Assembly (NCBI GenBank): GCA_026416125.1
Contig: JAOAFT010000017.1
Coordinates: 1-48,458 of the forward strand
DNA: 48,458 nucleotides
Direction of reading: 5' to 3'
From: Bacteroidota bacterium
GTDB lineage: Bacteria; Bacteroidota; Ignavibacteria; UBA10030
A program made the position numbers and the translations under genes. Numbering within the stretch: position 1 is the stretch's first letter; every line of letters starts with the position of its first letter. Below are positions 23,266 through 38,768 of the stretch, piece by piece. The notes under the pieces were generated by a model. It searched no databases and had not been told where the DNA came from. It worked only from the letters and a program-made list of their open reading frames with translations.

Positions 23266-24387
23266 ATGGCGTGGAATTCAATTATTGGACAAGAGCGTGT
23301 AAAACGTCTCCTCATAAAAACGTTAGAGCAGAGAACAATTGCTCACGCTTACCTTTTCTATGGTCCGAAAGGTATTGGGAAAAGTGCTCTTGCACTTGAA
23401 TTTGCTAAAGCATTATTGTGCGAAGCACAGTCCAACGATGCGTGTGGAAGCTGTAAAAGTTGCAAACAGTTTGAAACACTTCAACACCCAGATGTTCATC
23501 TTGTGTTTCCTCTTCCAATAGGAAACAACGAAAAAAGTGGAGATGATCCATACGAACGATTAACCGATGAGCAACTTTCAACAATACGTGAGCAACTTCG
23601 TCTTAAAGCAAGGAATTATTATCATACCATAGAAATACCGAAAGCAAATTTTATAAAGATTAATAGTATTCGCGAGTTAAAGAAACAAACAGCCCTTGCT
23701 CGTATACAATCACGATTTAAAGTTTTTGTTATATTCGAAGCTGAAAAGATGAATACAGAAGCTGCAAATTCATTATTAAAAACGCTCGAGGAACCACTTC
23801 CTAATACTGTGTTGCTGTTGACAACAAATGATCGTGATCAAATTTTAACAACGATAATTTCTCGATGTCAACAAGTACAATGCATGCCACTTTCGGAAGA
23901 CGAAATAATCAAGGCACTTATTGAAAGGGATGGATGTTCAGAATCACACGCACGTTCAGCTGCACGCTTGTCTAATGGAAGCTATTGGCAGGCACAACGA
24001 ATTATTGCGAACGATATTGAACCGTATCAAACAGAGGTAATTAATTTCCTTGGGTACGCTGTCACAAGACAGTGGAGAGAACTCATTGCGATTGTAGATG
24101 AGCTTGTAACACGCGAAAAATATGATATTCGGCAATGGCTCCAATTGCTTCAACTATGGTTGCGTGAGGCAATGGTACTGCGTGAAACAAAAATAGACAA
24201 CTATTCATTTTTTCACGCAGAACGTTGCAAACGATTTCTTGAACGGTATCCCAATGCAAGACTCAACGAGGCAATTACTGCAATCGATCGAGCAATTGCT
24301 CATCTAGATAAAAATGTCTACCTTCCATTAGTAATTACAACATTAGCACTAGATTTGCATCAATTAATAACGGATTATCAATTATGA
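23266..24387 (+). CDS. holB: DNA polymerase III subunit delta' (clamp loader)
   Basis: Part of the clamp-loader AAA+ complex that places the sliding clamp on DNA. The 373-residue product starts MAWNSIIGQERVKRLL and has a Walker A loop GPKGIGKS at residues 33-40. A zinc module uses Cys52, Cys60, Cys63 and Cys66, and TLEEP and TTIISRCQQV (sensor/SRC region) are present. The upstream ATG at 23185 lies in the barrel gene and is rejected. The gene ends with a four-base ATGA overlap with metG. The tau/gamma subunit DnaX is not in the window; the SRC motif is shared by DnaX, but the length and context favour delta'. Confidence 0.9.
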   Translation: MAWNSIIGQERVKRLLIKTLEQRTIAHAYLFYGPKGIGKSALALEFAKALLCEAQSNDACGSCKSCKQFETLQHPDVHLVFPLPIGNNEKSGDDPYERLTDEQLSTIREQLRLKARNYYHTIEIPKANFIKINSIRELKKQTALARIQSRFKVFVIFEAEKMNTEAANSLLKTLEEPLPNTVLLLTTNDRDQILTTIISRCQQVQCMPLSEDEIIKALIERDGCSESHARSAARLSNGSYWQAQRIIANDIEPYQTEVINFLGYAVTRQWRELIAIVDELVTREKYDIRQWLQLLQLWLREAMVLRETKIDNYSFFHAERCKRFLERYPNARLNEAITAIDRAIAHLDKNVYLPLVITTLALDLHQLITDYQL

Positions 24388-26459
24388 AAAAAGAGTTTAA
24401 ACGAGTACTTATCACAGCTGCATTACCATATGCAAATGGATACATTCATTTAGGACATTTGGCAGGCGCATACCTCCCTGCTGACATCTACGCTCGATAC
24501 CAACGTCTTAAAAAGAGAGATGTACTCTTTATCTGTGGCTCTGATGAACACGGTGTTGCAATAACAGTGTCAGCAGAACGAGAGAAAACGACACCTCAGG
24601 CGATTATTGATCGGTACCATCCGGCAAACAAAGAAGCATTTGAACAGTTTGGTATGAGCTTTGATAATTATTCGCGGACATCGCTACCACTACACCATGA
24701 AACAACGAGAGAATTTTTTGCTGATTTCTACAAGCGTAATATTGTTATTGAAAAGAAAGAACAGCAGTTGTATTGCGAGCGCGATGCTATGTTTCTTGCT
24801 GATCGATATGTCGAAGGAACTTGCCCGAAGTGCAAATCGATTCAGGCGCGTGGTGATCAATGTGAAAGTTGTGGTTCGTGGCTAAGTCAAATAGAACTTA
24901 TTGATCCAAAATGTAAAATATGTGGGAGTAGGCCAGTTATTCGTGAAACAACACATTTGTATTTCCCGTTAGGTCGTTACCAGCAACGACTAGAAAAGTA
25001 TATTAGAGAACGACATGAACGTGATGGTTGGAAAGAAAATGTACTTCGGTATAACGAATCATGGTTCAAAGAAGGTTTGCAAGACCGTGCTGTAACACGG
25101 GATCTCACATGGGGTGTGCCTGTACCAGTAAAAGGATTTGAAACGAAAGTCGTCTACGTATGGTTCGACGCAGTCCTAGGATACATTTCTTCAACAAAAG
25201 AGTGGGCATTGAAGAATAAAACACCTGAAGCTTGGAGAGAGTACTGGCAACGTGACGATACAAAGTATGTTGCATTCATTGGAAAAGATAATGTTGTATT
25301 CCATTGTATTGTGTTTCCAGCAATGTTAATGGCATGGAACGATGGTCATCCTGATGAACAATATGTACTTCCTGAAAATGTTCCAGCAAATGAATTTTTA
25401 AATTTTGAAGGGCAAAAGTTTTCCAAAAGCCGTGGATGGGGAATAGATGTACGTGATTTTCTCCGTTTTTTCCCAGCTGACACATTACGGTATGCTCTTG
25501 CTGTTAACTTACCGGAAAAAAGTGATAGCGATTTTTATCTACGGGATTTTCAGGCACGTGTAAATAATGAGCTTGCAGATATACTTGGGAATTTTATCAA
25601 TCGAACACTTGCATTTATCGAGAAGAATTTTAATGGAAAAGTACCTCCACGCGGTGACCTCAATGATCTGGATATACAGATACTTGAATACATGAAGCAA
25701 GCTCCAACTAGAGTTGGAAATTACTACGAACAGTACCGATTTAGGGAAGGTCTTGCTGAAGCAATGAATCTTGCCCGTGTTGCAAACAAGTATTTTAACG
25801 ATAGTGAACCATGGAAAACAGCAAAGGCAGATAAAGCTCGATGTGCTACTACACTCAATATTTCTACGCAAGTAGTACGGGCATTAGCGATTTTAATGGA
25901 ACCTGTAATACCACATACATCTCACCGTATTTGGTCACTCTTGAATTTACAAACAACCATTTATGATGATGGGTGGGACAGTGCAGGGGAAGAGAGAGTT
26001 CCTGTTAATCACCTGGTGAAAAGTCCAGAAATACTCATTTCAAAAATTGAAGATTCACAGATAAAACAAATTCTCAACTTTATAGAAAGTGGTTCAGAAA
26101 CATCTACTCTAACTACAATTGCAATGCAAACACATACCATAACGATTGACGATTTTAAAAAAATTGACCTTCGTGTAGGGAAAGTCCTTTCTGCCGAACG
26201 TTTACCTAAATCTGAAAAACTCCTCAAGGTACTTGTTGACCTTGGTGTTGAACAACGACAACTCATTGCAGGTATAGCACAATATTATACACCTGATCAA
26301 TTAGTGGGGAAATCGGTTGTTGTTGTTGCTAATCTAAAACCCACAAAATTAATGGGACATGAATCTCGTGGGATGCTCTTAGCTGCTACTGACCACGACG
26401 GGACTCTTGCGTTAGTAACCCTTGAGCGAGATATTACACCGGGTTCTTCTGTAAAGTAG
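24384..26459 (+). CDS. metG: Methionyl-tRNA synthetase with C-terminal tRNA-binding domain
   Basis: Charges tRNA-Met, including the initiator. The 691-residue product has the HIGH-type motif as IHLGH near residue 22, a zinc-binding knuckle with four CxxC pairs near 140-175 (CPKC, CESC, CKIC), and the KMSKS motif as KFSKS near 350. The last 110 residues form an EMAP/tRBD-like OB fold (FKKIDLRVGKVLSAERLP). The gene overlaps holB by four bases and precedes the menaquinone cassette by seven bases, so the whole run is probably one operon. Confidence 0.97.
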   Translation: MKKEFKRVLITAALPYANGYIHLGHLAGAYLPADIYARYQRLKKRDVLFICGSDEHGVAITVSAEREKTTPQAIIDRYHPANKEAFEQFGMSFDNYSRTSLPLHHETTREFFADFYKRNIVIEKKEQQLYCERDAMFLADRYVEGTCPKCKSIQARGDQCESCGSWLSQIELIDPKCKICGSRPVIRETTHLYFPLGRYQQRLEKYIRERHERDGWKENVLRYNESWFKEGLQDRAVTRDLTWGVPVPVKGFETKVVYVWFDAVLGYISSTKEWALKNKTPEAWREYWQRDDTKYVAFIGKDNVVFHCIVFPAMLMAWNDGHPDEQYVLPENVPANEFLNFEGQKFSKSRGWGIDVRDFLRFFPADTLRYALAVNLPEKSDSDFYLRDFQARVNNELADILGNFINRTLAFIEKNFNGKVPPRGDLNDLDIQILEYMKQAPTRVGNYYEQYRFREGLAEAMNLARVANKYFNDSEPWKTAKADKARCATTLNISTQVVRALAILMEPVIPHTSHRIWSLLNLQTTIYDDGWDSAGEERVPVNHLVKSPEILISKIEDSQIKQILNFIESGSETSTLTTIAMQTHTITIDDFKKIDLRVGKVLSAERLPKSEKLLKVLVDLGVEQRQLIAGIAQYYTPDQLVGKSVVVVANLKPTKLMGHESRGMLLAATDHDGTLALVTLERDITPGSSVK

Positions 26460-26466
26460 TGTATGT

Positions 26467-27318
26467 ATGAACTGGAACAGACAATGGAAAAAAGTAGCTC
26501 GATTTCTTAAAATTGAACATACGCTATTTTCACTTCCACTTATTTTTGCTGGTGTATTGTTAGCAGCAAAGCAGATACCACCACTTTACCAGATCGTACT
26601 CATTCTTCTTGCTGCAGTTGGTGCAAGAACCGTTGCTCTTTCATTGAATCGCATTATTGATAGGCACATAGACGCAAAAAACCCACGTACTTCAAATCGG
26701 GAACTACCAAGGAAAACAATGAAAGTATCAGAAGCGCTCATAGTTATGTGTATCGGCCTACTCTTCTACATCGGAAGTGCAGCACTGATTTCTCCTTTTT
26801 GTTTACTACTCTCACCTATACCACTTCTTGTGTTTGCAGTGTACCCATACTTAAAACGTTTTACACCTTTGGTACATTTTGGTGTGGGGCTTGGTTTAGC
26901 AATGGCTCCTTTAGGTGGATGGTTGGCTGTTACCTGTACGTTCGATGGAATCTTACCGGGTGCGTTACTTGCGCTCTTTATGTTTTTCTGGGCATCTGGA
27001 TTCGACGTTATTTATGCAACCCTTGATGAAGAATTCGACAAGAAAGAGAAGCTATATTCTCTAGTCGCAACGTATGGTAAGGAAAAAGCGTTGAAAATAT
27101 CTGCAATGCTCCATGTACTTTCTTTCTGTGTGTTATCGTTAGTATGGGCATTGTATCTACACAATGTTGGTTCGTTGCTTTTGCTTCTCCTCTCAGGGTA
27201 TTTACTTTACTTAGAACATAAAAATGTAGATAATGTTGAATTGGCATTTTTTAGAATCAACGCTTTGAATGGATTTGTGATACTAGGAATGGTAATAGTA
27301 GGAATCTACTTCTCATGA
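26467..27318 (+). CDS. UbiA-like prenyltransferase (menaquinone, MqnP-type)
   Basis: Integral membrane enzyme that attaches a polyprenyl chain to an aromatic acid. The 283-residue product has about nine hydrophobic segments. The two Asp-rich Mg/diphosphate motifs are visible as NRIIDRHID near residue 60 and DEEFDKKEKLYSL near 185. In the window's context, with UbiX- and UbiD-like neighbours and futalosine enzymes, the substrate is most likely a dihydroxynaphthoate-type acid, corresponding to the MqnP role. That assignment comes from context; 4-hydroxybenzoate prenylation would give a similar sequence. It overlaps the next gene by four bases (ATGA). Confidence 0.88.
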   Translation: MNWNRQWKKVARFLKIEHTLFSLPLIFAGVLLAAKQIPPLYQIVLILLAAVGARTVALSLNRIIDRHIDAKNPRTSNRELPRKTMKVSEALIVMCIGLLFYIGSAALISPFCLLLSPIPLLVFAVYPYLKRFTPLVHFGVGLGLAMAPLGGWLAVTCTFDGILPGALLALFMFFWASGFDVIYATLDEEFDKKEKLYSLVATYGKEKALKISAMLHVLSFCVLSLVWALYLHNVGSLLLLLLSGYLLYLEHKNVDNVELAFFRINALNGFVILGMVIVGIYFS

Positions 27319-27866
27319 GGATCGTCGTTGGCATAACAGGAGCATCGGGAGTACTCTTTGCCAGAGAATTCTTGCGGCAATGTGATACTGAAAAATACTT
27401 AATTGTTAGTAAATGGGGAAGCGTTGTATTGAGGGATGAATTAGGTATTACAGAACGAGATTTACTACCGTATGTACAAAAATATTTTCATGATGATGAT
27501 CTTACCGCTCCAATAGCTTCTGGTTCCAATAAGATTGATGCTGTTGTAATACTACCATGCTCAACCTCTACGTTAGGTAAGATTGCTTCAGGAATTGGGG
27601 ACACTTTGATTACACGGGTTGCACATGTAGCATTGAAAGAACGGTGGAAACTCATTCTATGTGTGCGAGAAACCCCACTATCGACTATAACGCTTGAACA
27701 CGCAATGAAACTCTCCATGCATGGAGCACTCATAATGCCAATTTCACCACCATTCTATACAAAACCGTCAACGCTTGATGATGTTATTGCGGTATTTGTC
27801 GAGAAGTTATGTAATATTCTAGGTATACGTGAGTCAAGAGGTTGGCGCTCTGAGAATTTGGAGTAA
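27315..27866 (+). CDS. ubiX: UbiX-like flavin prenyltransferase
   Basis: Makes prenylated FMN, the cofactor of UbiD-family decarboxylases. The 183-residue length is typical. It starts MRIVVGITGASGVLFAREFL, the FMN/phosphate-binding opening, and has the PCSTSTLGKIASGIGDTLI block near 75-95 and RETPLSTITLEHAMKLS near 120-140. Its partner UbiD-like gene begins two bases downstream; the pair is often seen with futalosine-pathway genes, where they are called MqnM/MqnL-type. Confidence 0.92.
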   Translation: MRIVVGITGASGVLFAREFLRQCDTEKYLIVSKWGSVVLRDELGITERDLLPYVQKYFHDDDLTAPIASGSNKIDAVVILPCSTSTLGKIASGIGDTLITRVAHVALKERWKLILCVRETPLSTITLEHAMKLSMHGALIMPISPPFYTKPSTLDDVIAVFVEKLCNILGIRESRGWRSENLE

Positions 27867-27868
27867 GG

Positions 27869-29650
27869 ATGTACTATCGAGCTCTTACAGAATTCCTTAT
27901 GGTTTTAGAAAAGCATGGTGAACTTTGTAGAATTACAAGACCAGTTGATCCACACCTAGAGATTACAGAAATTGCAGTACGCGCTGTTCGTGAACAAAAG
28001 CCTGCACTGCTCTTTGAAAATGTTAAAGGTTCACGGTATTCTTTAGCCATAAACGTTTACGCTTCTGAAAAGCGTATTGAGTTAGCCTTGGGGACTCATC
28101 CTGAACAACTTGGGGAAGAAATTTTACAATATGTAGAGCGATTCAATCCGCCCACGTTGAAAACTCTTTGGCATGAGCGACGTTTTTTGAAACGGTTGAT
28201 ATCAATTCGACCTCATTTTGTTAGTGGCGGTGTTGCTCAAGAAGTGGTTGAAAAAAAACCTACTCTCTCTGACTTACCGATACAGACCTGTTGGCCAAAG
28301 GATGGCGGTAAATTCATTACTCAGGGACAAGTTATTACATATCATCCTCGAACATGGCGAAGAAACGTTGGTGTCTACCGGATGCATGTGTTTGATGAAC
28401 GTACAACTGGGATGCATTGGCAAATTCAAAAGGGAGGAGGATTTCACTTTTCGGTTGCTGAAAACCTCAACCAAAGCCTTGAAGTAGCAGTTGCACTTGG
28501 AACTTCACCGGCATTGTATTTTGCATCAGTTGCAGCACTACCTGAAGATATAGACGAAGTTATTTTTGCGTCATTTCTTCAAAATAGACCAGTATCAATG
28601 ACATGCGCTAAAACACTTTCAATTCATGTACCAGCCGATGCTGAAATTATTCTCGAGGGAATTGTGTCGCCACATATGCGGAGACTCGAGGGTCCATTTG
28701 GTGATCACTTTGGACATTATTCAACAGTAGCGGAATTTCCAGTATTTCAACTCACCGCAATTACACACAGACGGTCTCCAATATATCCTGCAACAGTCGT
28801 TGGTATACCACCAATGGAAGACAAGTTTGTTGGTGATGCAACGCAACAAATTCTATCACCTTTAATTAAGGTGTTTTTTCATGAAGTTAATAAAATTTGG
28901 GCATACTACGAAGCTGGTTTTCATAATTTACTAGTTGCTGCTGTGAATGTACGATATAAGAAAGAAGCAATGAAGACCGCATGTGGTATCCTTGGAATGG
29001 GACAGTTATCATTAACAAAGTGCCTTATTCTTGTTTCGAGTAGCATCGATCCAAGGAACTGGCGATCGGTGTTACGTGAAATACGGGACAATTTTATTCC
29101 AGAGTGTGACCTTACGTTTCTCTCCCATGTTCCGATTGATACACTCGATTTTACAAGTGGGACATCAGAACTTGGTAGTAAAATAATTATCGATGCTACA
29201 AGGAAATTATATAGGCAACCTATTCACCGGGAAAGAAAAAAATTGTCCAACTTAGAACAAAAGGTGAGAGAACTTGATTCTCGAATTACAGCTGCTCGTT
29301 GTATGGAAGACTGTATGCTTATTGTCCAGTGTGAGAAAGATGGCCGTTCAATAGTTGAAACTTTAGTATCACACCCGGAACTCCAGGGATGTCCAATAGT
29401 TGTAGCAGTAAGCAGCGATATCAATGTGAATGATGATGAAAACGTTCTTTGGGGAATATTTACCCGTTTTGATTGTACACGGGATATTGTTGTGACAGAG
29501 AAAATGTTCGTTGGTTGTATGCCAGTGTACAAGGGTGTATTAGGCATAGATGCAACTCTGAAACAAGGGTATCCAGAGCCATTAAAAATGGATCCAAATG
29601 TTATACAACGAGTTAATGAGTATTGGGATAGTTTATGGAAAAACCGCTAA
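27869..29650 (+). CDS. ubiD: UbiD-family decarboxylase
   Basis: Prenyl-FMN-dependent decarboxylase that removes the carboxyl group from an aromatic acid. The 593-residue product has UbiD features: ITRPVDPHLEITEIA near the N-terminus, a central MEDKFVGDATQ region and EGPFGDHFGHYS near 272. In this cassette it probably acts on the prenylated or unprenylated dihydroxynaphthoic acid, but the order of the late steps is not decided by sequence. It overlaps the MqnE-MqnA gene by 16 bases, a strong coupling sign. It lies between UbiX and the radical SAM enzymes. Confidence 0.9.
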   Translation: MYYRALTEFLMVLEKHGELCRITRPVDPHLEITEIAVRAVREQKPALLFENVKGSRYSLAINVYASEKRIELALGTHPEQLGEEILQYVERFNPPTLKTLWHERRFLKRLISIRPHFVSGGVAQEVVEKKPTLSDLPIQTCWPKDGGKFITQGQVITYHPRTWRRNVGVYRMHVFDERTTGMHWQIQKGGGFHFSVAENLNQSLEVAVALGTSPALYFASVAALPEDIDEVIFASFLQNRPVSMTCAKTLSIHVPADAEIILEGIVSPHMRRLEGPFGDHFGHYSTVAEFPVFQLTAITHRRSPIYPATVVGIPPMEDKFVGDATQQILSPLIKVFFHEVNKIWAYYEAGFHNLLVAAVNVRYKKEAMKTACGILGMGQLSLTKCLILVSSSIDPRNWRSVLREIRDNFIPECDLTFLSHVPIDTLDFTSGTSELGSKIIIDATRKLYRQPIHRERKKLSNLEQKVRELDSRITAARCMEDCMLIVQCEKDGRSIVETLVSHPELQGCPIVVAVSSDINVNDDENVLWGIFTRFDCTRDIVVTEKMFVGCMPVYKGVLGIDATLKQGYPEPLKMDPNVIQRVNEYWDSLWKNR

Positions 29651-31503
29651 TACGATTTCGTGACAAACGACTTCAACTTATATGGGAAAAAGTCTCTACT
29701 GCTGAACGGTTAACGTTTGATGATGGGCATACACTCTTTCAAACAAATGATTTCTATGCTCTTGGAAAAATGGCACGGTATGTTCAGATGGTGAAAAATG
29801 GTGATGCTGTTTATTTTTCGCTCAATCAAAAAATAGAACCAACAAATATTTGTGTACTCACATGTAAGTTTTGTAATTTTGGAGTAACAAAATACCATCC
29901 TCGTGCATATGAATTAACAATTGATGCAATACTTAAAATGTTGAATGAACAAGTACGAGAAGTGCACATTACTGGGGCTTTGCATCCAGAATGGAGTTTT
30001 GAACACTATGTCCATATAATACGGGCAATTCGCGAACATTTCCCCCGCATTGGCATCAAAGCATTTACAGCAGTAGAAATATGGTACTTCCATAAGAAGT
30101 TCAACCTATCCATTGAGGAAGTGTTAAAACGTCTTCAAGAAGCGGGTGTTCAAGCATTACCAGGTGGTGGTGCAGAAGTATTTTCAGAACGTATTCACAA
30201 CGAACTATTTCCACAAAAATTGGGTGCAAAGGAATGGCTCTCAATTCACCGTACAGCACATTTACAGGGGTTACCTTCAAATGCAACAATTTTGTATGGA
30301 CATATCGAAACTATAGAAGAACGCGTGAATCATCTACTGCAAATTCGTTCATTGCAAGATGAAACAGGTGGCTTTTTATCATTTATTCCCCTTGCGTTCC
30401 AACCTGGTACAACGAAGATAAAGCCATACGCGTATCCTACTTCAGCACTCGATGATCTCAAAATGATCGCAGTATCACGACTCTTACTTGACAATGTACC
30501 TCACATAAAAGCTTATTGGGTAATGTCAACAGAAGAAGTGGCATCGGCAGCACTCAATTATGGAGCAGATGATCTTGAAGGTACTGTAGGTGGTGAACGG
30601 ATTGCTCACGATGCAGGGGCACGAACGCCAACCAAACTTTCAATAAATCGTATACTTTCACTCATTCGCGATGCCGGGAAAATTCCTGTTGAACGAGATA
30701 TTATGTACAATCCTATTGCAATACACTCACCAAACGTTATTGGCAAAATTCCATATTTAAATTCAGTTCCTTTTTTTACAAAATTTACGTCGTCATCCTT
30801 CAAACTCCTTCCCCTCATTCCTAAACAAATGGGTATTCTAGCAGAAAAGAAACAGCTTCTTGCAGGGTTATTTCCTCTTATCGAATATCTTCGTTTGAAG
30901 TCGATGCTACTCCCATTACCATATTGTCTTTCATCACGCGATCAAGTGAAAAGTGTGCTTCTCTTTTCAAATGAGGGGTGGAAGCAGTTAGAAGGGAAAA
31001 AAATTGGTGTCACAGATGCAACAGTTACTTCGGTAATGCTTCTCAAAGTACTCTTACGAGTAAAGTACAATGTGAACGCTCATATTGAGAGACTGCCACC
31101 AATGATGAGTTCATACACACACTATGATGCTGTGTTACTAATTGGCGATCAAGCATTAAAACATAAAAAAGATGCCTTAGGATATTTTGAGCTTATATTC
31201 GATCTAGCACACGAGTGGTACGAGTGGAAACGGCTCCCATTTGTCTTCGCACTATGGGCAATTCAAGCATCTGCTACAGAGGAAGAGAAATCAGCACTCC
31301 TGAACACATTGAATGAATCTATAGATTATGGCGAAAGAAACTTTGCCAAACTCTGTGGCTATCATGCAAAACAGTTGAAAATTTCTGAAATTGAGTGTAT
31401 AGAATACTTAGAAGGATTCAATTTTCGTATGGGTCAAAGAGAACTTGCTTCTATCCAAGAATTTGAACGATGTATCAGCGAACTTATAACAATCGAGCAC
31501 TAG
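29635..31503 (+). CDS. Fused aminofutalosine synthase (MqnE) and chorismate dehydratase (MqnA)
   Basis: A 622-residue protein joining two futalosine-pathway enzymes. Residues 1 to about 360 are a radical SAM enzyme with CxxxCxxC at Cys73, Cys77 and Cys80 (NICVLTCKFC) and the PGGGAEVFSERI block, typical of MqnE. Residues from about 369 on match MqnA: IGKIPYLNSVPFF, then AGLFPLIEYLR, then AVLLIGDQAL near 500 and LPFVFALWAI near 535. MqnA makes 3-enolpyruvylbenzoate from chorismate, which MqnE then joins to SAM-derived adenosine, so the fusion links successive steps. A misread stop between two genes is unlikely because the frame is continuous with no in-frame ambiguity. It overlaps ubiD by 16 bases. 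Confidence 0.9.
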   Translation: MEKPLIRFRDKRLQLIWEKVSTAERLTFDDGHTLFQTNDFYALGKMARYVQMVKNGDAVYFSLNQKIEPTNICVLTCKFCNFGVTKYHPRAYELTIDAILKMLNEQVREVHITGALHPEWSFEHYVHIIRAIREHFPRIGIKAFTAVEIWYFHKKFNLSIEEVLKRLQEAGVQALPGGGAEVFSERIHNELFPQKLGAKEWLSIHRTAHLQGLPSNATILYGHIETIEERVNHLLQIRSLQDETGGFLSFIPLAFQPGTTKIKPYAYPTSALDDLKMIAVSRLLLDNVPHIKAYWVMSTEEVASAALNYGADDLEGTVGGERIAHDAGARTPTKLSINRILSLIRDAGKIPVERDIMYNPIAIHSPNVIGKIPYLNSVPFFTKFTSSSFKLLPLIPKQMGILAEKKQLLAGLFPLIEYLRLKSMLLPLPYCLSSRDQVKSVLLFSNEGWKQLEGKKIGVTDATVTSVMLLKVLLRVKYNVNAHIERLPPMMSSYTHYDAVLLIGDQALKHKKDALGYFELIFDLAHEWYEWKRLPFVFALWAIQASATEEEKSALLNTLNESIDYGERNFAKLCGYHAKQLKISEIECIEYLEGFNFRMGQRELASIQEFERCISELITIEH

Positions 31504-31512
31504 GGTAAACGT

Positions 31513-32334
31513 ATGACAGAAATACTACTTAAACGATTCGAAGAACTCATTGAATCTGGGAATAAACTTGTTCCTCTCGGTGGATTTGAATTTTCTGGGT
31601 ATAATGCTCGCCTACAAAACACATATAGTGAATGGCGAAAAGCAAGTCTTGAACTCTTTGATCTTGTAGGTCCAATAGGGTTTCCTTATAAAAACAAAGT
31701 ACTGAGTGATTCGAATAGTGTATATTTCTACCAAACGTCGGCATTTCTTATTCTCAATGCACTCAAAGAATTATCGGAAAAACTTAAAGCAACACCAGAA
31801 CTCATTACGGAAAAATCAATTCTTGCTCAGGAACAAAAGGAGAGAGAGCAAGTCACGTTTCACCAAGAAGAAGGTGTAACGGTACTAAAACCACCACCGA
31901 AAAAACAACCACCGCAGCAACAGATATCGATTGCAGAGAGGAGTATTCGTAAAAAAGTCTACGTTATAGGTAATAAGAATGAACCACTTCGAGTACAGCT
32001 CTCAGAATTTCTTAAAGAGCTTGATATTGAAGAAGTAGTAATTGAACGTACACCTGGGAAAATGCTTCTACTTGACGAGATACAAGATAATCCCGACGTT
32101 CACTATGCTTTTTTCGTAGTTGATTCTCAGGATATAGCATATATCATGTTTGAGCTTGGTCATTTCGTTGGTAAACTTGGCAATGGGAAAGTAATGGTAC
32201 TGCATATGACAGATGTGCAATTCCCACGTGAAGTACCAGGTGTTACTGTGAAACCAATAGTTGTAAAATTAGAAGAGGCAAGTTTAGCAATTATAAAGGA
32301 ACTAAAAGCAGGAGGGTACTCAATCAACATTTAA
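31513..32334 (+). CDS. TIR-like nucleotide-binding domain protein (PF10137-like), unknown function
   Basis: A 273-residue protein in two parts. Residues 1 to about 95 are helical (LLKRFEELIESGNKL). A Pro/Gln-rich linker follows at 126-140 (KPPPKKQPPQQQ). Residues about 148-273 look like the TIR-like domain of PF10137: KKVYVIGNKNEPLRVQLSEFL, then DNPDVHYAFFVVDSQD, then FELGHFVGKLGNGKVMVL (213-230) and IIKELKAGGY near the end. In related domains a Glu lies in the position held here by Asp188 or Glu189, and the Arg/Gln-rich stretch before FELG is absent, so NADase activity is doubtful. No signal peptide. It is encoded nine bases after the MqnE-MqnA gene and is followed by mqnC. Confidence 0.72.
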   Translation: MTEILLKRFEELIESGNKLVPLGGFEFSGYNARLQNTYSEWRKASLELFDLVGPIGFPYKNKVLSDSNSVYFYQTSAFLILNALKELSEKLKATPELITEKSILAQEQKEREQVTFHQEEGVTVLKPPPKKQPPQQQISIAERSIRKKVYVIGNKNEPLRVQLSEFLKELDIEEVVIERTPGKMLLLDEIQDNPDVHYAFFVVDSQDIAYIMFELGHFVGKLGNGKVMVLHMTDVQFPREVPGVTVKPIVVKLEEASLAIIKELKAGGYSINI

Positions 32335-32356
32335 AGTGTTTAAACGAGAGACTTTA

Positions 32357-33436
32357 ATGAGAATTAGGGAAATACTCACAGCGTGTATCAATGGGAAACG
32401 AATTACACGCGACGAAGGGTTACAACTTTCTCTTGAAGCTGATATCCTTGAACTTGGTGAAGCTGCTTACGAGGTACGATTTCAAAAGAATCAACAACCA
32501 TTCGTAACCTATGTTGTGGATACAAATCCTAATTATTCAAATATCTGTACAATTGAGTGCTCGTTTTGTGCTTTCTACAAGCGAAAAGGTGAAACAGGTG
32601 CATTTACGCTTTCAGTAGAGGAACTTATAACATCTTTTAAACACGCTGCAGAACGCGGTGTGACAACAGTGCTCCTTCAAGGGGGGGTACATCCAGATTT
32701 ACCATTCGAGTACTACCTTGAATTAATTGAACGAACACGAAAAGAAGTACCGCACATTGTACCTCATTTTTTCTCACCACCAGAAATACTTGGCATTGCT
32801 CAGACTTCTGGGTTGAGCGTAGAAGAAGTGCTTCAAAAGTTTTGGTATGCCGGTCTACGAACTCTTCCTGGTGGTGGTGCTGAAATTCTCTCAGATAGGG
32901 TACGACTAAAAATAAGCTCCAAAAAAGGAAGTTCAAACGATTGGCTCATGGTGATGAGGATAGCACATCGGATTGGATATAGAACAACAGCAACAATGAT
33001 GTTTGGTCATTTTGAAGAATGGGAAGATATAATTAACCACTTGGAAGCAATACGTATACTGCAAGATGAAACTAATGGATTTATGGCATTTATTCCTTGG
33101 TCATTTAAACCTTCTAATACACCACTTGAAAAAGTAATTCCTTATCATGCTACACCACTAAAGTATCTTCGAATACTAGCTCTTGCACGTCTTTACTTGG
33201 ATAATGTTCCTCACATTCAAACATCTTGGTTTTCTGAAGGGAAAAAAATTGGTCAAATAGGATTGTACTTTGGTGCTGATGATTTTGGGGGAACGATCTT
33301 TGAGGAAAATGTGCATGCAGCTGCACAGTACTATAACAAAGCTACAGTCGATGAATGTAGGCGATTGATTCGTGAAGCTGGCTTTATTCCAGCACAGCGG
33401 AACACATTGTACAACATTCTTTCTATCGATAAATAA
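32357..33436 (+). CDS. mqnC: Cyclic dehypoxanthinyl futalosine synthase (MqnC)
   Basis: Radical SAM enzyme that cyclises dehypoxanthine futalosine in the futalosine menaquinone pathway. The 359-residue product has CxxxCxxC at Cys64, Cys68 and Cys71 (NICTIECSFCAF), LPGGGAEILSDRVR in the middle, and a C-terminal FGADDFGGTIFEENVH block. These match MqnC rather than MqnE. A GTG at 32336, two bases after the previous gene, would add seven residues; the ATG at 32357 is preferred. It ends the unit; the next feature is the promoter and RNA before porU. MqnB and MqnD are not found in the window. Confidence 0.93.
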   Translation: MRIREILTACINGKRITRDEGLQLSLEADILELGEAAYEVRFQKNQQPFVTYVVDTNPNYSNICTIECSFCAFYKRKGETGAFTLSVEELITSFKHAAERGVTTVLLQGGVHPDLPFEYYLELIERTRKEVPHIVPHFFSPPEILGIAQTSGLSVEEVLQKFWYAGLRTLPGGGAEILSDRVRLKISSKKGSSNDWLMVMRIAHRIGYRTTATMMFGHFEEWEDIINHLEAIRILQDETNGFMAFIPWSFKPSNTPLEKVIPYHATPLKYLRILALARLYLDNVPHIQTSWFSEGKKIGQIGLYFGADDFGGTIFEENVHAAAQYYNKATVDECRRLIREAGFIPAQRNTLYNILSIDK

Positions 33437-33512: not shown

Positions 33513-33665
33513 GTATTTGCAATAAGGAAGGAGCAATACGTATCGAGTTTTGATAAGGTATTGAATAAACTGGAAAAGAGCTGTGCAAGTAGACCTTTTC
33601 AAACTCGATATTGTACAAGTTGAGAGTGCCAGATGAAAAGGTACCACTTTTTATCTGGCTTTTTT
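33513..33665 (+). ncRNA. Candidate structured RNA or attenuated porU leader ending in an intrinsic terminator
   Basis: About 150 bases between the promoter and porU fold into a plain series of elements. A hairpin could form between GTATTTGC (33513-33520) and GCAATAC (33533-33539), with AAGGAAGG in its loop; its 5' arm may precede the transcription start. A long stem pairs TATCGAGTTT (33541-33550) exactly with AAACTCGATA (33601-33610), and AAGGT (33555-33559) pairs with ACCTT (33593-33597) inside it. The terminator at 33628-33665 closes the unit. No open frame fills this stretch. It could be a free small RNA or a riboswitch-like leader controlling the T9SS genes. I do not recognise the class. 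Confidence 0.6.
33628..33665 (+). terminator. Intrinsic terminator directly before porU
   Basis: GCCAGAT (33628-33634) pairs with ATCTGGC (33653-33659), extended by GAAAAG (33635-33640) with CTTTTT (33647-33652), giving 13 base pairs around the loop GTACCA, followed by six T residues. It overlaps an in-frame ATG at 33633, which therefore is not the porU start. Confidence 0.9.
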
Positions 33666-33668
33666 ATT

Positions 33669-36600
33669 ATGAAACACGTAGTGGCCTATATAGTATTACT
33701 TACAACTACTGTGCAGGTTGTTCTTGCACAAAACAGTATTCCACTTAGAATTGTTCAGCAAACACCTACTTTTGTAGACATTGAATTTAATCCCTCTGTA
33801 CGGCAATCTATACGGTTAGGTTCAGATGGCAAAGAGTATGGTTGGTATGATTTTGAGTATAGCCACATAGGAGTTGACTCACGTTCTGGATTGCTTTTTT
33901 TCTATGCGATGATTCCTGTAGTACTGCCAGATTCTTTCTGCACGATTCAAATTCTAACAACGGAAAGCTTTGAAACTCAGGTACTACCACCAAACGCAGA
34001 AGCACTGGGTATATCAAGTATCCAAAAGGAATTTAAGGAAGATAGAATTGCGTGGTTTACTGACTTTTCTCACTTCCACGAGTATACAGTTGCCTCGTTG
34101 ATTTTGAGACCAGTTGAGTTTATAGATGTTTCAAGAACTCGTCTTTACACAAAATTTGTTCTTCGGATACAAAGCACAAACGGACATCTATTTGCGAACA
34201 ATCCACTTGCACTCTGTCGGTGGAATACAGGATCAGAACTTGAAGCAACAAGTACTCGTACAATAAAGAAATTGACTGGAGTACCTTCACCCTTAGCAAC
34301 TGGAACATGGTATCGTTTTACTATTCAAGAGACAGGGATATATAAACTTGATTATTCATACTTTAAAAGTCAGAATATACCTGCTACGGTATGGAATAAC
34401 ATTAATGAAATAAGAATCTATGGGAATGGTGGTATTGTTGTACCACAAAATACTGGCCAACCGTATCCAGATGATTTGCAAGAAATTGCGAGACTCGTTG
34501 TAGACAACAATAAAAATGGAACGTTTGACACCGATGATTACATTCTTTTCTATGGTGTTACACCACGTATGTGGGTATATAAAGATAAAAGTATAACGCA
34601 TGTACTCCATCCATATACAGAAACAAACAACTGCTTTCTAACATCAACGCCAGGTATACCAGGGAAGGCGATGAGTGTACTCGAGTCAATATCCTCAAAT
34701 ACTATATTTCAACCAGCCTATTTTTTAGATGGGGTTTTTGTTGAACAAGAGAAGTATAACCTTATCAAGAGCGGTCGTCGCTGGGTAGGACAACGATTCG
34801 ATGCAAATACACAGTCAGCAATTTATACAAATACGCTCTATGGAATTATCTCTTCACTACCAATTGAGTATCGTTTTGTCTTCTATGTTAGATCGTCAAC
34901 ATCAGACGCTATGACCATAACAGAAAACGGGCAAAATCTTCTCACGATCTCCTTACCGTCGATGGTTGTTAACCAATCGGATAATCAAGGGTACTATGCG
35001 CAAACACGTCAGTATTCGTTTAAGACGATTCGACAAATTCCCGATAACAGAAGTGTCGTAAAATTTCAGTACTCACCAATGAATGCAAATGGAATTGCGT
35101 GGTTGGATTGGTTTGAAATTATTTACTATCGAAGTTTTGACGCTGTAAACAACTTTTTACTGTGGTGGGGGTACGATACTACTGGGTATGTCCAATATGA
35201 AGTGAAGAATTTATCATCCGCAGACGTATATGCTTTTGATGTAACAGAACATTCAAATGTAAAAGTGATTATCGGTTTACAGACTGAACCTGCAAACCCT
35301 ACTGTTAGACGGTTCACAGTATATCAAGCGGGTGGTACAATTCGACGTTTTGCTATTGTTGGATTAAACGGTACGAAAACACCAAGTACCGCTGAACGCG
35401 TTGATAATTCCAATCTCCATGGTGTAACAGATCGTATCGATTACATTATTATTACACCAAAAGAATTCGAAACAGAAGCAAATCGGTTGAAAAACCACAG
35501 AGAAACTCGTGATACAATCAGAACATTAGTAGCAACAATTGAAGCGGTTTACAATGAATTTTCTGGTGGACTTCAAGACCCCATGGCGATTCGAAATTTC
35601 CTGAAGTATGCATATGAACGGTGGCCTACACCTCCAAAGTATGTTCTCCTATTTGGAAGTGGTCACTATGACTATAAAAATATCACGACAACTCTAAAAA
35701 ATTGGATACCTCCATTCGAAACAGATGAGTCAAATTATCAAATTATGTCGTACTGTACCGATGATTCACTCGTTCTATGGGGAAATAGTTCAAGGGTAAT
35801 GATGGGGCTTGGACGTTTACCTGTGCGAACAAAAGCACAGGCAAAAAGTGTTGTTGACAAGATTATTCGATATGAAACAGAATCTCCCTTTGATGAATGG
35901 CGTAGTCGGATTACTTTTGTAGCAGATGATGAGTTTCCAACGCGTGTAGTAGGTGATTCTGCATCAACTACGAAGGAATATTTCCATGCTGAAGACACGG
36001 AAATTCTTGCCCGTGGCTATGTTCCGGCAACAATGGAAAAGAATAAAATTTTTCTTTCACAGTATCCAGACGTCATTACTGCTGCAGGACGGCGGAAACC
36101 AGGAGCGGCAGAGGCGCTTATCACAGCTATAAACAATGGAACGTTAATATTGAACTACGCTGGTCATGGTAATGAAACAGTCTGGGCTCACGAGGAAGTG
36201 TTTTCTCAATCTTCAACGTTACCCCAATTAACAAATCAACGGATGCTACTTCTCCTCATTGCTGCAACGTGTGACTTTGCTTTGTACGATGATCCTTCTG
36301 TGTTCAGTGCTGGAGAAGAATTTGTCACAATGGCAAATGGTGGAGCGATTGTAGGTATTTCTGCTGCTCGACCAGTCTATGCAAATCAGAACATTGCTCT
36401 CAACCGTGAAATACTTAGGCAATTGTTTTTACGTGATACATATGGGAATGTTCCAAGGATTGGCGATGTAATAAAGACAGTAAAGCAGTTCTATAACACA
36501 GTAAATGACAAAAAATACCATCTCTTTGGCGATCCAACTCTTCGTATTTTAATTCCGCGATACACTGTTGCAGTTGACTCTATTAATGATGAAAGTCCAA

Positions 36601-37616
36601 CGTCACTAGTTACGGTTAAAGCACTTGGAAAAATAAGAATAGCAAGTTCAGTACGAAGTAAAGATTCAAGTATTATTGAATCTTACAATGGCGATGCCAT
36701 AGTAAAGATTTATGGACCAACAAGGGTACTTCGATTTAATAATTGGCCGAAGTCCGATTCATTCCTTGTACATGGGGCAATTCTTTACAGTGGGAAAGTA
36801 TCAGTGCGGAATGGTACTATGATGGCGTTAGCACGTCTTCCTAAAGATGTCGTTATGGGAAATAATGCACGACTTGCAGTCTACTGTTGGGATAACAACA
36901 TAGATGGTATAGGTGTGACAGAAAACATTCTTATCAACGATATCGATACATCAGATGTCAGTGACTCGAGAGGACCCCAAGTCACAGTTTACTTTGATAA
37001 TGAGATGTTTCGAAATGGCGATGTTGTACCACAAACAACGAGGCTCATCGTACGAGTAGAAGATGAAAGTGGTGTTAATACATCAGTTCTTGGTATTGGA
37101 CATGGGCTCCGGGCATCCCTTGAACGACCACCCTCAGTAATTGATCTCAGTTCGTACTACAAGAATGATCGTGATACGTACCAACGTGGCGAAGCTCAAT
37201 ATGTACTACGAAATTTACCATTAGGGAAAAATTCTATCCGTGTAAAAGCTTGGGATATTCACAATAACTCAAGTGAAGTAGAGGTTGCATTTGAGGTTGT
37301 TGAGTATTCAAAAACAGAGATTACACGGATTAACAATTACCCAAATCCGTTTTCACAAAGTACATTCTTTACTTTTCAACGGAGTTCGGGTGATCCAATT
37401 GCAATTGAAATTAAAATATATACCCTCGCGGGTCGTCTTGTGAGAACTCTCTCTCTACCGGTTTTTACAGAACGGTACGGACGGATACTATGGGATGGGT
37501 ACGATACACATGGTGATAACGTTGCGAATGGTATTTATATATACAAAATTATTACAAAGGATTTGATAACGAATGATACTAAAGAATACATAGGGAAACT
37601 AGCACGTGTTCAATAA
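33669..37616 (+). CDS. porU: T9SS signal peptidase-like protein PorU (C25 family)
   Basis: PorU is a gingipain-family cysteine peptidase on the cell surface that removes the C-terminal sorting domain of T9SS cargo and joins cargo to the surface. The 1315-residue product begins with a signal peptide (MKHVVAYIVLLTTTVQVVLAQ). The C25 domain spans about residues 585-965, with catalytic His833 (NYAGHGNE) and Cys868 (AATCDF). The last 90 residues, from NNYPNPF near 1222 and with LAGRLVRTL, are themselves a T9SS sorting domain, as in known PorU. The start is taken as ATG 33669, just after the terminator; no ribosome site is clear. porV follows 42 bases downstream. Confidence 0.9.
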   Translation: MKHVVAYIVLLTTTVQVVLAQNSIPLRIVQQTPTFVDIEFNPSVRQSIRLGSDGKEYGWYDFEYSHIGVDSRSGLLFFYAMIPVVLPDSFCTIQILTTESFETQVLPPNAEALGISSIQKEFKEDRIAWFTDFSHFHEYTVASLILRPVEFIDVSRTRLYTKFVLRIQSTNGHLFANNPLALCRWNTGSELEATSTRTIKKLTGVPSPLATGTWYRFTIQETGIYKLDYSYFKSQNIPATVWNNINEIRIYGNGGIVVPQNTGQPYPDDLQEIARLVVDNNKNGTFDTDDYILFYGVTPRMWVYKDKSITHVLHPYTETNNCFLTSTPGIPGKAMSVLESISSNTIFQPAYFLDGVFVEQEKYNLIKSGRRWVGQRFDANTQSAIYTNTLYGIISSLPIEYRFVFYVRSSTSDAMTITENGQNLLTISLPSMVVNQSDNQGYYAQTRQYSFKTIRQIPDNRSVVKFQYSPMNANGIAWLDWFEIIYYRSFDAVNNFLLWWGYDTTGYVQYEVKNLSSADVYAFDVTEHSNVKVIIGLQTEPANPTVRRFTVYQAGGTIRRFAIVGLNGTKTPSTAERVDNSNLHGVTDRIDYIIITPKEFETEANRLKNHRETRDTIRTLVATIEAVYNEFSGGLQDPMAIRNFLKYAYERWPTPPKYVLLFGSGHYDYKNITTTLKNWIPPFETDESNYQIMSYCTDDSLVLWGNSSRVMMGLGRLPVRTKAQAKSVVDKIIRYETESPFDEWRSRITFVADDEFPTRVVGDSASTTKEYFHAEDTEILARGYVPATMEKNKIFLSQYPDVITAAGRRKPGAAEALITAINNGTLILNYAGHGNETVWAHEEVFSQSSTLPQLTNQRMLLLLIAATCDFALYDDPSVFSAGEEFVTMANGGAIVGISAARPVYANQNIALNREILRQLFLRDTYGNVPRIGDVIKTVKQFYNTVNDKKYHLFGDPTLRILIPRYTVAVDSINDESPTSLVTVKALGKIRIASSVRSKDSSIIESYNGDAIVKIYGPTRVLRFNNWPKSDSFLVHGAILYSGKVSVRNGTMMALARLPKDVVMGNNARLAVYCWDNNIDGIGVTENILINDIDTSDVSDSRGPQVTVYFDNEMFRNGDVVPQTTRLIVRVEDESGVNTSVLGIGHGLRASLERPPSVIDLSSYYKNDRDTYQRGEAQYVLRNLPLGKNSIRVKAWDIHNNSSEVEVAFEVVEYSKTEITRINNYPNPFSQSTFFTFQRSSGDPIAIEIKIYTLAGRLVRTLSLPVFTERYGRILWDGYDTHGDNVANGIYIYKIITKDLITNDTKEYIGKLARVQ

Positions 37617-37658
37617 TGATAATTGTGAACTAATAATTAACCGTAAGGAGTACTAACA

Positions 37659-38768
37659 ATGCAGAAAATTCTTTTAATTGTAATTATAACAATTCTATGT
37701 TTATCAGTTCTCCCAGCCCAAGAACTACAAACAACAGCGGTACCATTTCTCCTTATTGCTCCGAATTCGCGGGCAAGTGCCATGGGAGAAAGTGGTGTTG
37801 CAACAGCAGATGATGCATGGGCTATTTTTTGGAATCCTGCTGGATATGCTTTCCAAAAGGGTTCAGAAATTTCGATGTCACATGCGAACTGGCTTCCTGC
37901 TCTAGGCTTATCCGATTTATGGATTGCCCACCTCGTTTATAAGCAACCGGTTGAAGAATTGGATGGTATTGTAGCTGCATCGGTAACCTACGAAAACCTT
38001 GGTGAGTTTCAACGCACCCTCAATGACCCAACACCAATTGGTACATTCAAAGGATATGAAGCAGCACTTACACTTGGTTATAGCACAAAATTATCTAAAA
38101 CAGTAGGTATTGGTGTAAATACAAGAATTATTTACAGTCACTTAGCGGACAAAGGAACCGGTGAAGAAGCAGGGCGTGGTACTGCCACAGGATTCAGTTT
38201 CGATGTTGGGTTACTCTATAAACCAGAGCATGTTCTCATTCCATTCACAGGTATTGATTTGCAGAATGCGTTAAGTATTGGAGTCAATATTTCAAATATT
38301 GGTCCAAATATATATTACGTTGACAAAGAACAGGCAGATCCATTACCTCAAAATTTACGTTTTGGAGTTGCGTTTAATATTCTTAATGATGAGTACAATT
38401 CGTTAACAACTTCTCTTGAATTCAACAGACTTCTTGTGAATCGAGATACCTCTGCCAAAAAAGCCGACGAGTTCTACAAAGCGTTCTATACTACGTGGAC
38501 TGGCGGTTCATTGGCTCAACAACTTAGACGTTTCACAACTGCTGTAGGTATTGAGTATTGGTATGGATCACCGAAGCTCATCGCACTCCGTGCTGGATAC
38601 TTTTATGAGGATCCCCGCGCCGGTAATCGTAAGTTTATGACATTTGGTGCCGGAATTCGGTACGATATTTACGGATTCGATTTCAGCTACATTAGTACAG
38701 CCGAAGAGCAACACCCACTCGGGGAAACATTACGTTTTACATTGTCGATAGGTTGGGGTGGTGAGTAA
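37659..38768 (+). CDS. porV: T9SS outer-membrane protein PorV
   Basis: PorV is a FadL-like barrel that receives T9SS cargo from the translocon and works with PorU on the surface. The 369-residue product has a signal peptide (MQKILLIVIITILCLSVLPAQ) and the family start TTAVPFLLIAPNSRASAMGESGVA, followed by DDAWAIFWNPAGYA. Repeated beta strands end in an aromatic-rich barrel end (LRFTLSIGWGG). AAGGAG lies nine bases before the ATG. Its stop overlaps the GTG start of the M6-like gene by about 11 bases, so PorV and its neighbour are coupled. Confidence 0.93.
   Translation: MQKILLIVIITILCLSVLPAQELQTTAVPFLLIAPNSRASAMGESGVATADDAWAIFWNPAGYAFQKGSEISMSHANWLPALGLSDLWIAHLVYKQPVEELDGIVAASVTYENLGEFQRTLNDPTPIGTFKGYEAALTLGYSTKLSKTVGIGVNTRIIYSHLADKGTGEEAGRGTATGFSFDVGLLYKPEHVLIPFTGIDLQNALSIGVNISNIGPNIYYVDKEQADPLPQNLRFGVAFNILNDEYNSLTTSLEFNRLLVNRDTSAKKADEFYKAFYTTWTGGSLAQQLRRFTTAVGIEYWYGSPKLIALRAGYFYEDPRAGNRKFMTFGAGIRYDIYGFDFSYISTAEEQHPLGETLRFTLSIGWGGE

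Follow-up and report, generated by a model that had tools for sequence, protein, structure and literature searches.

The gene at positions 31513-32334 (+) of the window (the whole 48,458-nucleotide stretch analysed here), which we call X, encodes a 273-residue protein that we read, with belief and doubt about evenly balanced, as a domesticated TIR protein now in a housekeeping role, with ligand binding predicted for a rebuilt pocket and a conserved helical N-terminal domain attached. Within the family to which the window belongs (f1; f2-f6 denote the other families of the same order), X is a syntenic core gene. Its role is not limited to the futalosine pathway, since genomes that have lost this pathway still have X. 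PF10137-type TIR genes are otherwise patchy and known from defence systems, and the TIR domains of bacteria are familiar chiefly from immune effectors with a patchy distribution and horizontal transfer. A TIR protein that is instead core, syntenic and passed on vertically, and whose NADase site has been taken apart, would represent domestication that took place naturally among bacteria. Repeated loss of the surrounding operon provides a clean test of what X does not serve, and the setting bears on two biochemical matters as well, the enzyme that carries out futalosine hydrolysis across the order and the quinone of the operon-less genomes.

In the literature, we found no description of a TIR gene associated with a futalosine/menaquinone operon, of the candidate defence family PDC-S35, or of futalosine in Ignavibacteria and, judging from summary entries, nothing on a comparable non-defence bacterial TIR protein. 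The closest parallel found comes from the extracts of a 2026 preprint on TIR domestication (PMC13142454), in which the amoeba proteins TirB, TirC and TirD are immune TIR proteins of the PF10137 clade that were taken over into a new setting and kept in synteny, as X is. In the same extracts, these proteins are eukaryotic and TirC is a toxic NADase (PMC13142454), whereas X is bacterial and its active site appears dismantled.

Gene X within the menaquinone operon

An earlier note on this DNA had placed an open reading frame in tight spacing between MqnE-MqnA and MqnC. Its coordinates proved exact, with X lying 9 bp downstream of the fused mqnE-mqnA and 1 bp upstream of mqnC. The genes upstream are, in order, metG, ubiA, ubiX, ubiD and the fused mqnE-mqnA, and the gene downstream is mqnC. 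The features to which we refer are as follows:

24384..26459 (+): metG, methionyl-tRNA synthetase, the upstream neighbour; named from its sequence
26467..27318 (+): ubiA-type prenyltransferase of the operon; profile match
27315..27866 (+): ubiX-type flavin prenyltransferase of the operon; Pfam Flavoprotein match, the name ubiX being presumptive
27869..29650 (+): ubiD-type decarboxylase of the operon; profile match
29635..31503 (+): mqnE-mqnA fusion, aminofutalosine synthase plus a PF02621 MqnA-type part; TIGR03700 435.2 bits (cut-off 434.55), PF02621 156.3 bits
31513..32334 (+): X, 273 aa; helical N-terminal domain, disordered linker and C-terminal degenerate PF10137 TIR domain, as predicted
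31513..31845 (+): X N-terminal part, residues 1-111; predicted helical bundle with the signature GG(F/L)EFSGYNA(R/K)xQ...YxxWRK...FxQ
31882..31902 (+): VLKPPPK, residues 124-130; short conserved motif of the disordered linker
31948..32331 (+): X TIR domain, residues 146-273, assigned from profile, model and hhalign
32047..32049 (+): R179, directly following a predicted strand; invariant in 35/35 copies (alignment A2)
32131..32133 (+): D207, matching the second D of TPDD in canonical members; invariant in 35/35
32152..32154 (+): E214, aligned with the catalytic E84 of SfSTING; 35/36 copies
32230..32232 (+): E240, aligned with D110 of SfSTING, the residue supplied by the dimer mate; D in none of 36 copies
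32266..32268 (+): K252 of the KLEE motif; invariant in 35/35
32336..33436 (+): mqnC, cyclic dehypoxanthinyl futalosine synthase; TIGR03699 455.7 against a cut-off of 428.1

The linker motif VLKPPPK occurs in 23/36 X copies and is missing from those of f5. The MqnE-MqnA fusion of the window is a single 622-residue protein, and the same long form is seen across the order. Downstream of mqnC, positions 33633-38768 encode a large protein with a Peptidase_C25 domain, followed by another protein; the first would be of the PorU kind and the second PorV-like. Queries for amidohydrolase, mqnD and ubiE gave no match in the window at E 1e-10; relatives have all three downstream of mqnC. Among the 8 neighbouring proteins of X, none matched a PADLOC family at E 1e-5, so the earlier remark that no defence genes are near holds for the proteins scanned.

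Family, fold and active site of X

By its profile matches, the C-terminal part of X is a TIR domain of the PF10137 family, as the earlier note had proposed. Pfam PF10137 (CAP12/Pycsar effector TIR) matches residues 148-248 with 35.7 bits against a cut-off of 24.7 (E 9.8e-9), the best PADLOC match is PDC-S35 (E 2.1e-17, 61.7 bits, residues 134-272 only), and hhalign of the X alignment against 6 canonical PF10137 members returns a probability of 99.7. The model of whole X has a mean pLDDT of 82.9, with means of at least 89 in each ten-residue block over residues 151-270. Its best Foldseek match is a TIR-STING chain (E 7.7e-4), to which VIA-align fits it with a Z of 10.8 at 3.3 A over 122 aligned residues, and response-regulator receivers tie with this, at Z up to 11.5. 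The predicted fold is thus TIR-like, so the lack of a structural match by which the earlier note would have been refuted did not come about, though receiver domains score equally; since the fold search fails to separate the two, the TIR assignment of X rests on sequence profiles.

The Cap12 equivalog profile gives 19.1 bits on X and does not reach its cut-off of 450, and the PycTIR profile gives only 17.1 bits. The 8 neighbours are without a PADLOC match, so there is no CD-NTase among them, nor a pyrimidine cyclase. Searching the solved structures with the X sequence yielded only weak Cap12 matches, and Pfam recognised neither a STING nor a cyclic-nucleotide-binding domain. X shares with the PF10137 family (SfSTING/Cap12, PDB 7un8 and 9lmq; PycTIR, 8jsj) the TIR fold, the Glu and the second D of TPDD, and it shares with the canonical member L043 the same C-terminal KELKxxG(Y/F) tail. 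It departs from the family in having no CC-loop insertion, no R78, N80 and D110, and no Pfam-recognised STING/cyclic-nucleotide-binding domain, and in being a vertical core gene. PDC-S35, for its part, resembles X in size and in order (N-terminal part, C-terminal TIR), as seen in L043, whereas the match is limited to the C-terminal residues given above, X is not patchy, and its active-site motif is lost.

The N-terminal part of X, when modelled alone, is a helical bundle (pLDDT 78), and 19 of its residues are invariant in 34 copies. Against the N-terminal parts of canonical members, it reaches an hhalign probability of 3%; a P2-domain match (E 0.091) falls below cut-off; Foldseek gives no match at E 0.001; and VIA-align scores are at most Z 8.8, to unrelated helical bundles. 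With no specific structural relative, this part belongs to no family that we can name.

The active site can be compared with that of SfSTING. According to the extracts of PMC9402430, E84 is catalytic, R78 and N80 are positioned to contact the phosphate and ribose of NAD, and D110 is supplied by the dimer mate, with no activity seen for the D110A form at the enzyme concentration given there. PDB sequence matches equate E84 with E214 of X, R78 with I208, N80 with Y210 and D110 with E240, this transfer of numbers being a reading of the alignments. The R78 counterpart is R in 2/36 X copies versus 17/18 canonical PF10137 proteins, the N80 counterpart is N in 3/36 versus 18/18, and the D110 counterpart is D in 0/36 versus 15/18; the E84 counterpart is E in 35/36 versus 18/18. 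For L109, L075, L076, L064 and L042, residues were taken from alignments rather than from a motif search, and the X columns were tabulated again. In place of the CC-loop insertion, there is a gap between the TPDD-like and FELG motifs in 12/12 X copies aligned with canonical members, and the same gap appears in the larger alignment. The earlier note had called key residues altered, and this was borne out in the window, where the RARQN motif is absent before FELG and the TIIEKFE motif is absent around D188/E189. As judged from these alignments, the NADase site of X is largely dismantled, with the Glu kept. The strict conservation of E214 would also be in keeping with a retained hydrolase.

Two further residues, R179 and K252, are new invariants, and D207 and E214 are kept, each in 35/35 copies; R179 was not found at the corresponding place in L043. 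In the predicted secondary structure, R179 comes after strand 173-178 and K252 after strand 244-249, and D207 and E214 lie in the helix that follows strand 196-203. All four thus stand at or beside the C-terminal ends of predicted strands, on the sheet edge that carries TIR pockets. The X copy of G049 (L042:7500-8531) has lost all four and keeps the N-terminal signature except Y38, as if the four residues served one site. We infer that R179, D207, E214 and K252 form one pocket.

Distribution, origin and retention of X

In a search of 61 genomes, X was found in 31/32 genomes of f1, the sole miss (G022) being 55% complete, and in 5/7 genomes of f5. No X was detected in f2, f4 or f6; the f3 genome G038 carries a canonical TIR gene that is unlinked. 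When 294 genomes of the class were searched with a profile, full-length matches came solely from f1 and f5, the f5 genomes G040, G053 and G217 being without X. Scanning a collection of 84,980 species genomes gave 43 X loci, all titled Ignavibacteria/Ignavibacteriales, Bacteroidota or unclassified MAGs. X adjoins mqnEA and/or mqnC in 36/43 of these loci, with 7 loci without either, and its slot between mqnEA and mqnC is identical in f1 and f5. Linkage with mqn genes, whose absence from related genomes the earlier note had named as a refutation, is thus conserved, and the presence of X with synteny in 31/32 f1 genomes is far from chance. Canonical PF10137 genes are patchy, with a match in 16/148 sampled genomes of the phylum outside f1 and f5; within f1, strong extra PF10137 copies occur in G020 and G029.

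In f2, f3, f4 and f6, mqnEA is followed directly by mqnC, without X, in 7/7 genomes examined. This arrangement in four other families makes it probable that X was inserted once into an existing operon and then passed on by vertical descent, which is the simplest history. The X-bearing families form one clade on a concatenated MqnEA+MqnC tree (support 92/89, 95% of bootstrap trees), built from 29 chosen rows, with the window's own sequence, a long branch in a tree of MqnC alone, left out. That MqnC tree does not separate f1 and f5 from the X-less families, and three of its rows (L072, L092 and L093) are wrongly mqnEA. A required link between X and metG was considered and rejected: metG adjoins X in f1, but no metG stands next to the operon at the loci of f5.

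In seven genomes of f1, the futalosine genes around X are lost or decayed. Five of them (G010, G012, G014, G023 and G024) have neither mqnC nor mqnEA, and two (G026 and G028) hold mqn genes only as broken pieces, yet X is in its usual site in all seven. The mqnC query detects both mqnC and mqnEA in each of the remaining f1 genomes that are reasonably complete. In all seven, X lies behind metG, the neighbour that stays beside it where mqn genes are lost, with a second ubiA-type gene in between in G024, G026 and G028. The far flank is preserved too in G010, G012, G014 and G023, where ubiE and the amidohydrolase stand as in the mqn-bearing G019, but without mqnD between. In these four genomes, metG, amidohydrolase and ubiE are in place and mqnC, mqnD, mqnEA, ubiD, ubiX and ubiA are gone; with both flanks preserved, genes must have been removed on either side of X and X spared. 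On the X tree, the mqn losses need 5 changes, of which at least 3 are forced by well-supported branches (G023 is not in this tree).

The suggestion of the earlier note that X senses by-products of the futalosine pathway finds no support in the five operon-less genomes and the two with decayed operons, and a futalosine-specific role is rejected on the same evidence. X may instead be a sensor of some other nucleotide-type ligand. The f5 genome G040, from which both mqnC and X are missing, counts against complete independence of X from the mqn genes.

The reading frame of X is intact in 6/7 of the operon-less or decayed genomes, G023 being frameshifted; among mqn-bearing f1 genomes, there is a frameshift in G015 and an in-frame stop in G025, and some copies are truncated. 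For X, pairwise dN/dS comes to 0.12-0.14 in G026-G028, 0.10 in G024-G030 and 0.14 in G029-G031. The first two pairs include operon-less genomes, and both members of the first have decayed operons; selection on X looks purifying. In the G026-G028 comparison, dN/dS is 0.08 for metG and, over 87 codons, 0.21 for the mqnC relic, suggesting a recent loss of the pathway in these two genomes.

Proposed role and competing explanations

Our preferred reading, domestication of a TIR protein, can be set out as a series of steps:

(i) In the ancestor shared by f1 and f5, a PF10137-type TIR gene appears to have entered the operon between mqnEA and mqnC in a single insertion, with moderate tree support.

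(ii) X has probably been inherited vertically since that insertion, on the same moderate tree support.

(iii) The NADase site was taken apart, as the alignments show, through loss of the CC-loop insertion and of the R78, N80 and D110 counterparts, with the Glu retained.

(iv) R179, D207, E214 and K252, which predicted secondary structure places at the sheet edge, would build a shared pocket there.

(v) X would most likely bind a small ligand, probably of nucleotide type, in the pocket so rebuilt, without working as an NADase.

(vi) X may signal or scaffold through its conserved N-terminal helical domain.

(vii) The job of X would be wider than the futalosine pathway, given the observed loss of the pathway and persistence of the gene.

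Stated in its most specific form, which we put forward tentatively, the domestication reading holds that an immune-type TIR protein became a vertically inherited housekeeping protein, that its NADase site was rebuilt with the new invariant basic residues R179 and K252 beside the old D207 and E214 as a pocket for a different nucleotide-type ligand, that it was joined to a helical domain not otherwise belonging to the family, and that it entered by way of the menaquinone operon and outlives it.

It is possible, though rather unlikely, that X serves quinone synthesis or quinone status generally, as an accessory or regulatory protein of a step common to the futalosine pathway and its replacement; this would account for X staying close to quinone genes once the futalosine genes had gone. 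Quinone genes always adjoin X, being mqn genes in 36/43 loci and ubiE with the amidohydrolase nearby in four operon-less loci, and in the window, X is tightly spaced with mqnEA and mqnC. X and mqnC are, moreover, both missing from G040. The operon-less genomes have complex I, and 6/7 have a haem-copper oxidase, so some quinone is presumably present in them. Against a general quinone role stand the at least 3 independent losses that took the futalosine genes on either side and not X, the four other families (7 genomes examined) that run mqnEA-mqnC without X, and the finding of no quinone route in the operon-less genomes, where menD and menB stay below cut-off as in all 32 of the 32 f1 genomes. 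For this classical menaquinone route, menD and menB are over cut-off in 0/32 f1 genomes, and sub-cut-off matches occur in mqn-bearing genomes too. As an observation in its own right, G010, G012, G014, G023 and G024 have no futalosine genes and no menD or menB over cut-off, yet possess complex I and mostly haem-copper oxidases, with ubiE in four.

That X is still an anti-phage effector, a single-gene TIR system like PDC-S35 kept in the operon for steady expression, is improbable. The match to this candidate defence family (E 2.1e-17), the membership of PF10137, the CAP12/Pycsar effector TIR family, and the retained catalytic Glu are all in keeping with it, as is the greater divergence of the X region between G026 and G028 (82% DNA identity) than of the upstream 4.7 kb (93.4%). 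However, X is core and syntenic family-wide, whereas canonical PF10137 genes occur in only 16/148 genomes sampled outside f1 and f5; R78, N80, D110 and the CC loop are lost, no neighbour has a defence match, and dN/dS is housekeeping-like. Core inheritance, lost active-site residues and the absence of defence neighbours together argue against a defence effector, and the hidden NADase effector that the earlier note had entertained finds its R78, N80 and D110 counterparts lost nearly throughout.

In the futalosine pathway, MqnB hydrolysis falls between the MqnE and MqnC steps. The MqnB step presumably lies between the products of the genes flanking X, and X could then be an N-glycosidase that fills a missing MqnB step by releasing the base from (amino)futalosine, using its retained Glu as TIR-fold glycosidases do. 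The position of X exactly between the genes for the preceding and following steps speaks for such an enzyme, together with the retention of E214 in 35/36 copies, the finding of MqnB over cut-off in 0/61 relatives, and the phosphorylase size (276-279 aa) of both PF01048 proteins in the window's genome. We nevertheless consider it very unlikely. Genomes with neither MqnE nor MqnC retain X, and an N-glycosidase of this kind would be useless to them; f2, f3, f4 and f6 have MqnE and MqnC with neither X nor an MqnB over cut-off; and the G049 copy has lost the Glu although its genome keeps mqnC. MqnB (TIGR03664) is also of a different fold family, no PF01048 or TIGR03664 match was found in X, and X, unlike MqnB, persists without the pathway. 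Independently of X, MqnB is over cut-off in 0/61 genomes of the order, for example G000, though most of the genomes searched for MqnC have it.

A dead remnant, kept only since its neighbours need an unbroken operon, is scarcely credible: the TIR part is degenerate in the G049 copy and frames are broken in G023, G015 and G025, but purifying selection, the 19 invariant N-terminal residues in 34 copies and an intact X in 6/7 genomes whose neighbours are gone or decayed, that is, the retention of X without the operon, largely refute it.

Returning to X and its surroundings, we note some minor features of the loci that lost the pathway. The second, MenA-like UbiA gene between metG and X lies at L036:6527-7420, L032:4874-5767 and L037:8875-9768 (among G024, G026 and G028). 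The three second UbiA genes are 94-95% identical to one another, and X is only 66% identical between G024 and G028. Between L036 and L037 (G028 and G026, respectively), DNA identity is 93.4% over metG and the second ubiA (the upstream 4.7 kb), 82% in X and 86% in the mqnC relic; so sharp a boundary suggests recombination. Finally, the metG beside X in G012 (L031:8084-10012) is 31% identical to that of the window, against 64-72% in the other relatives listed: this position is occupied there by a methionyl-tRNA synthetase of another type.
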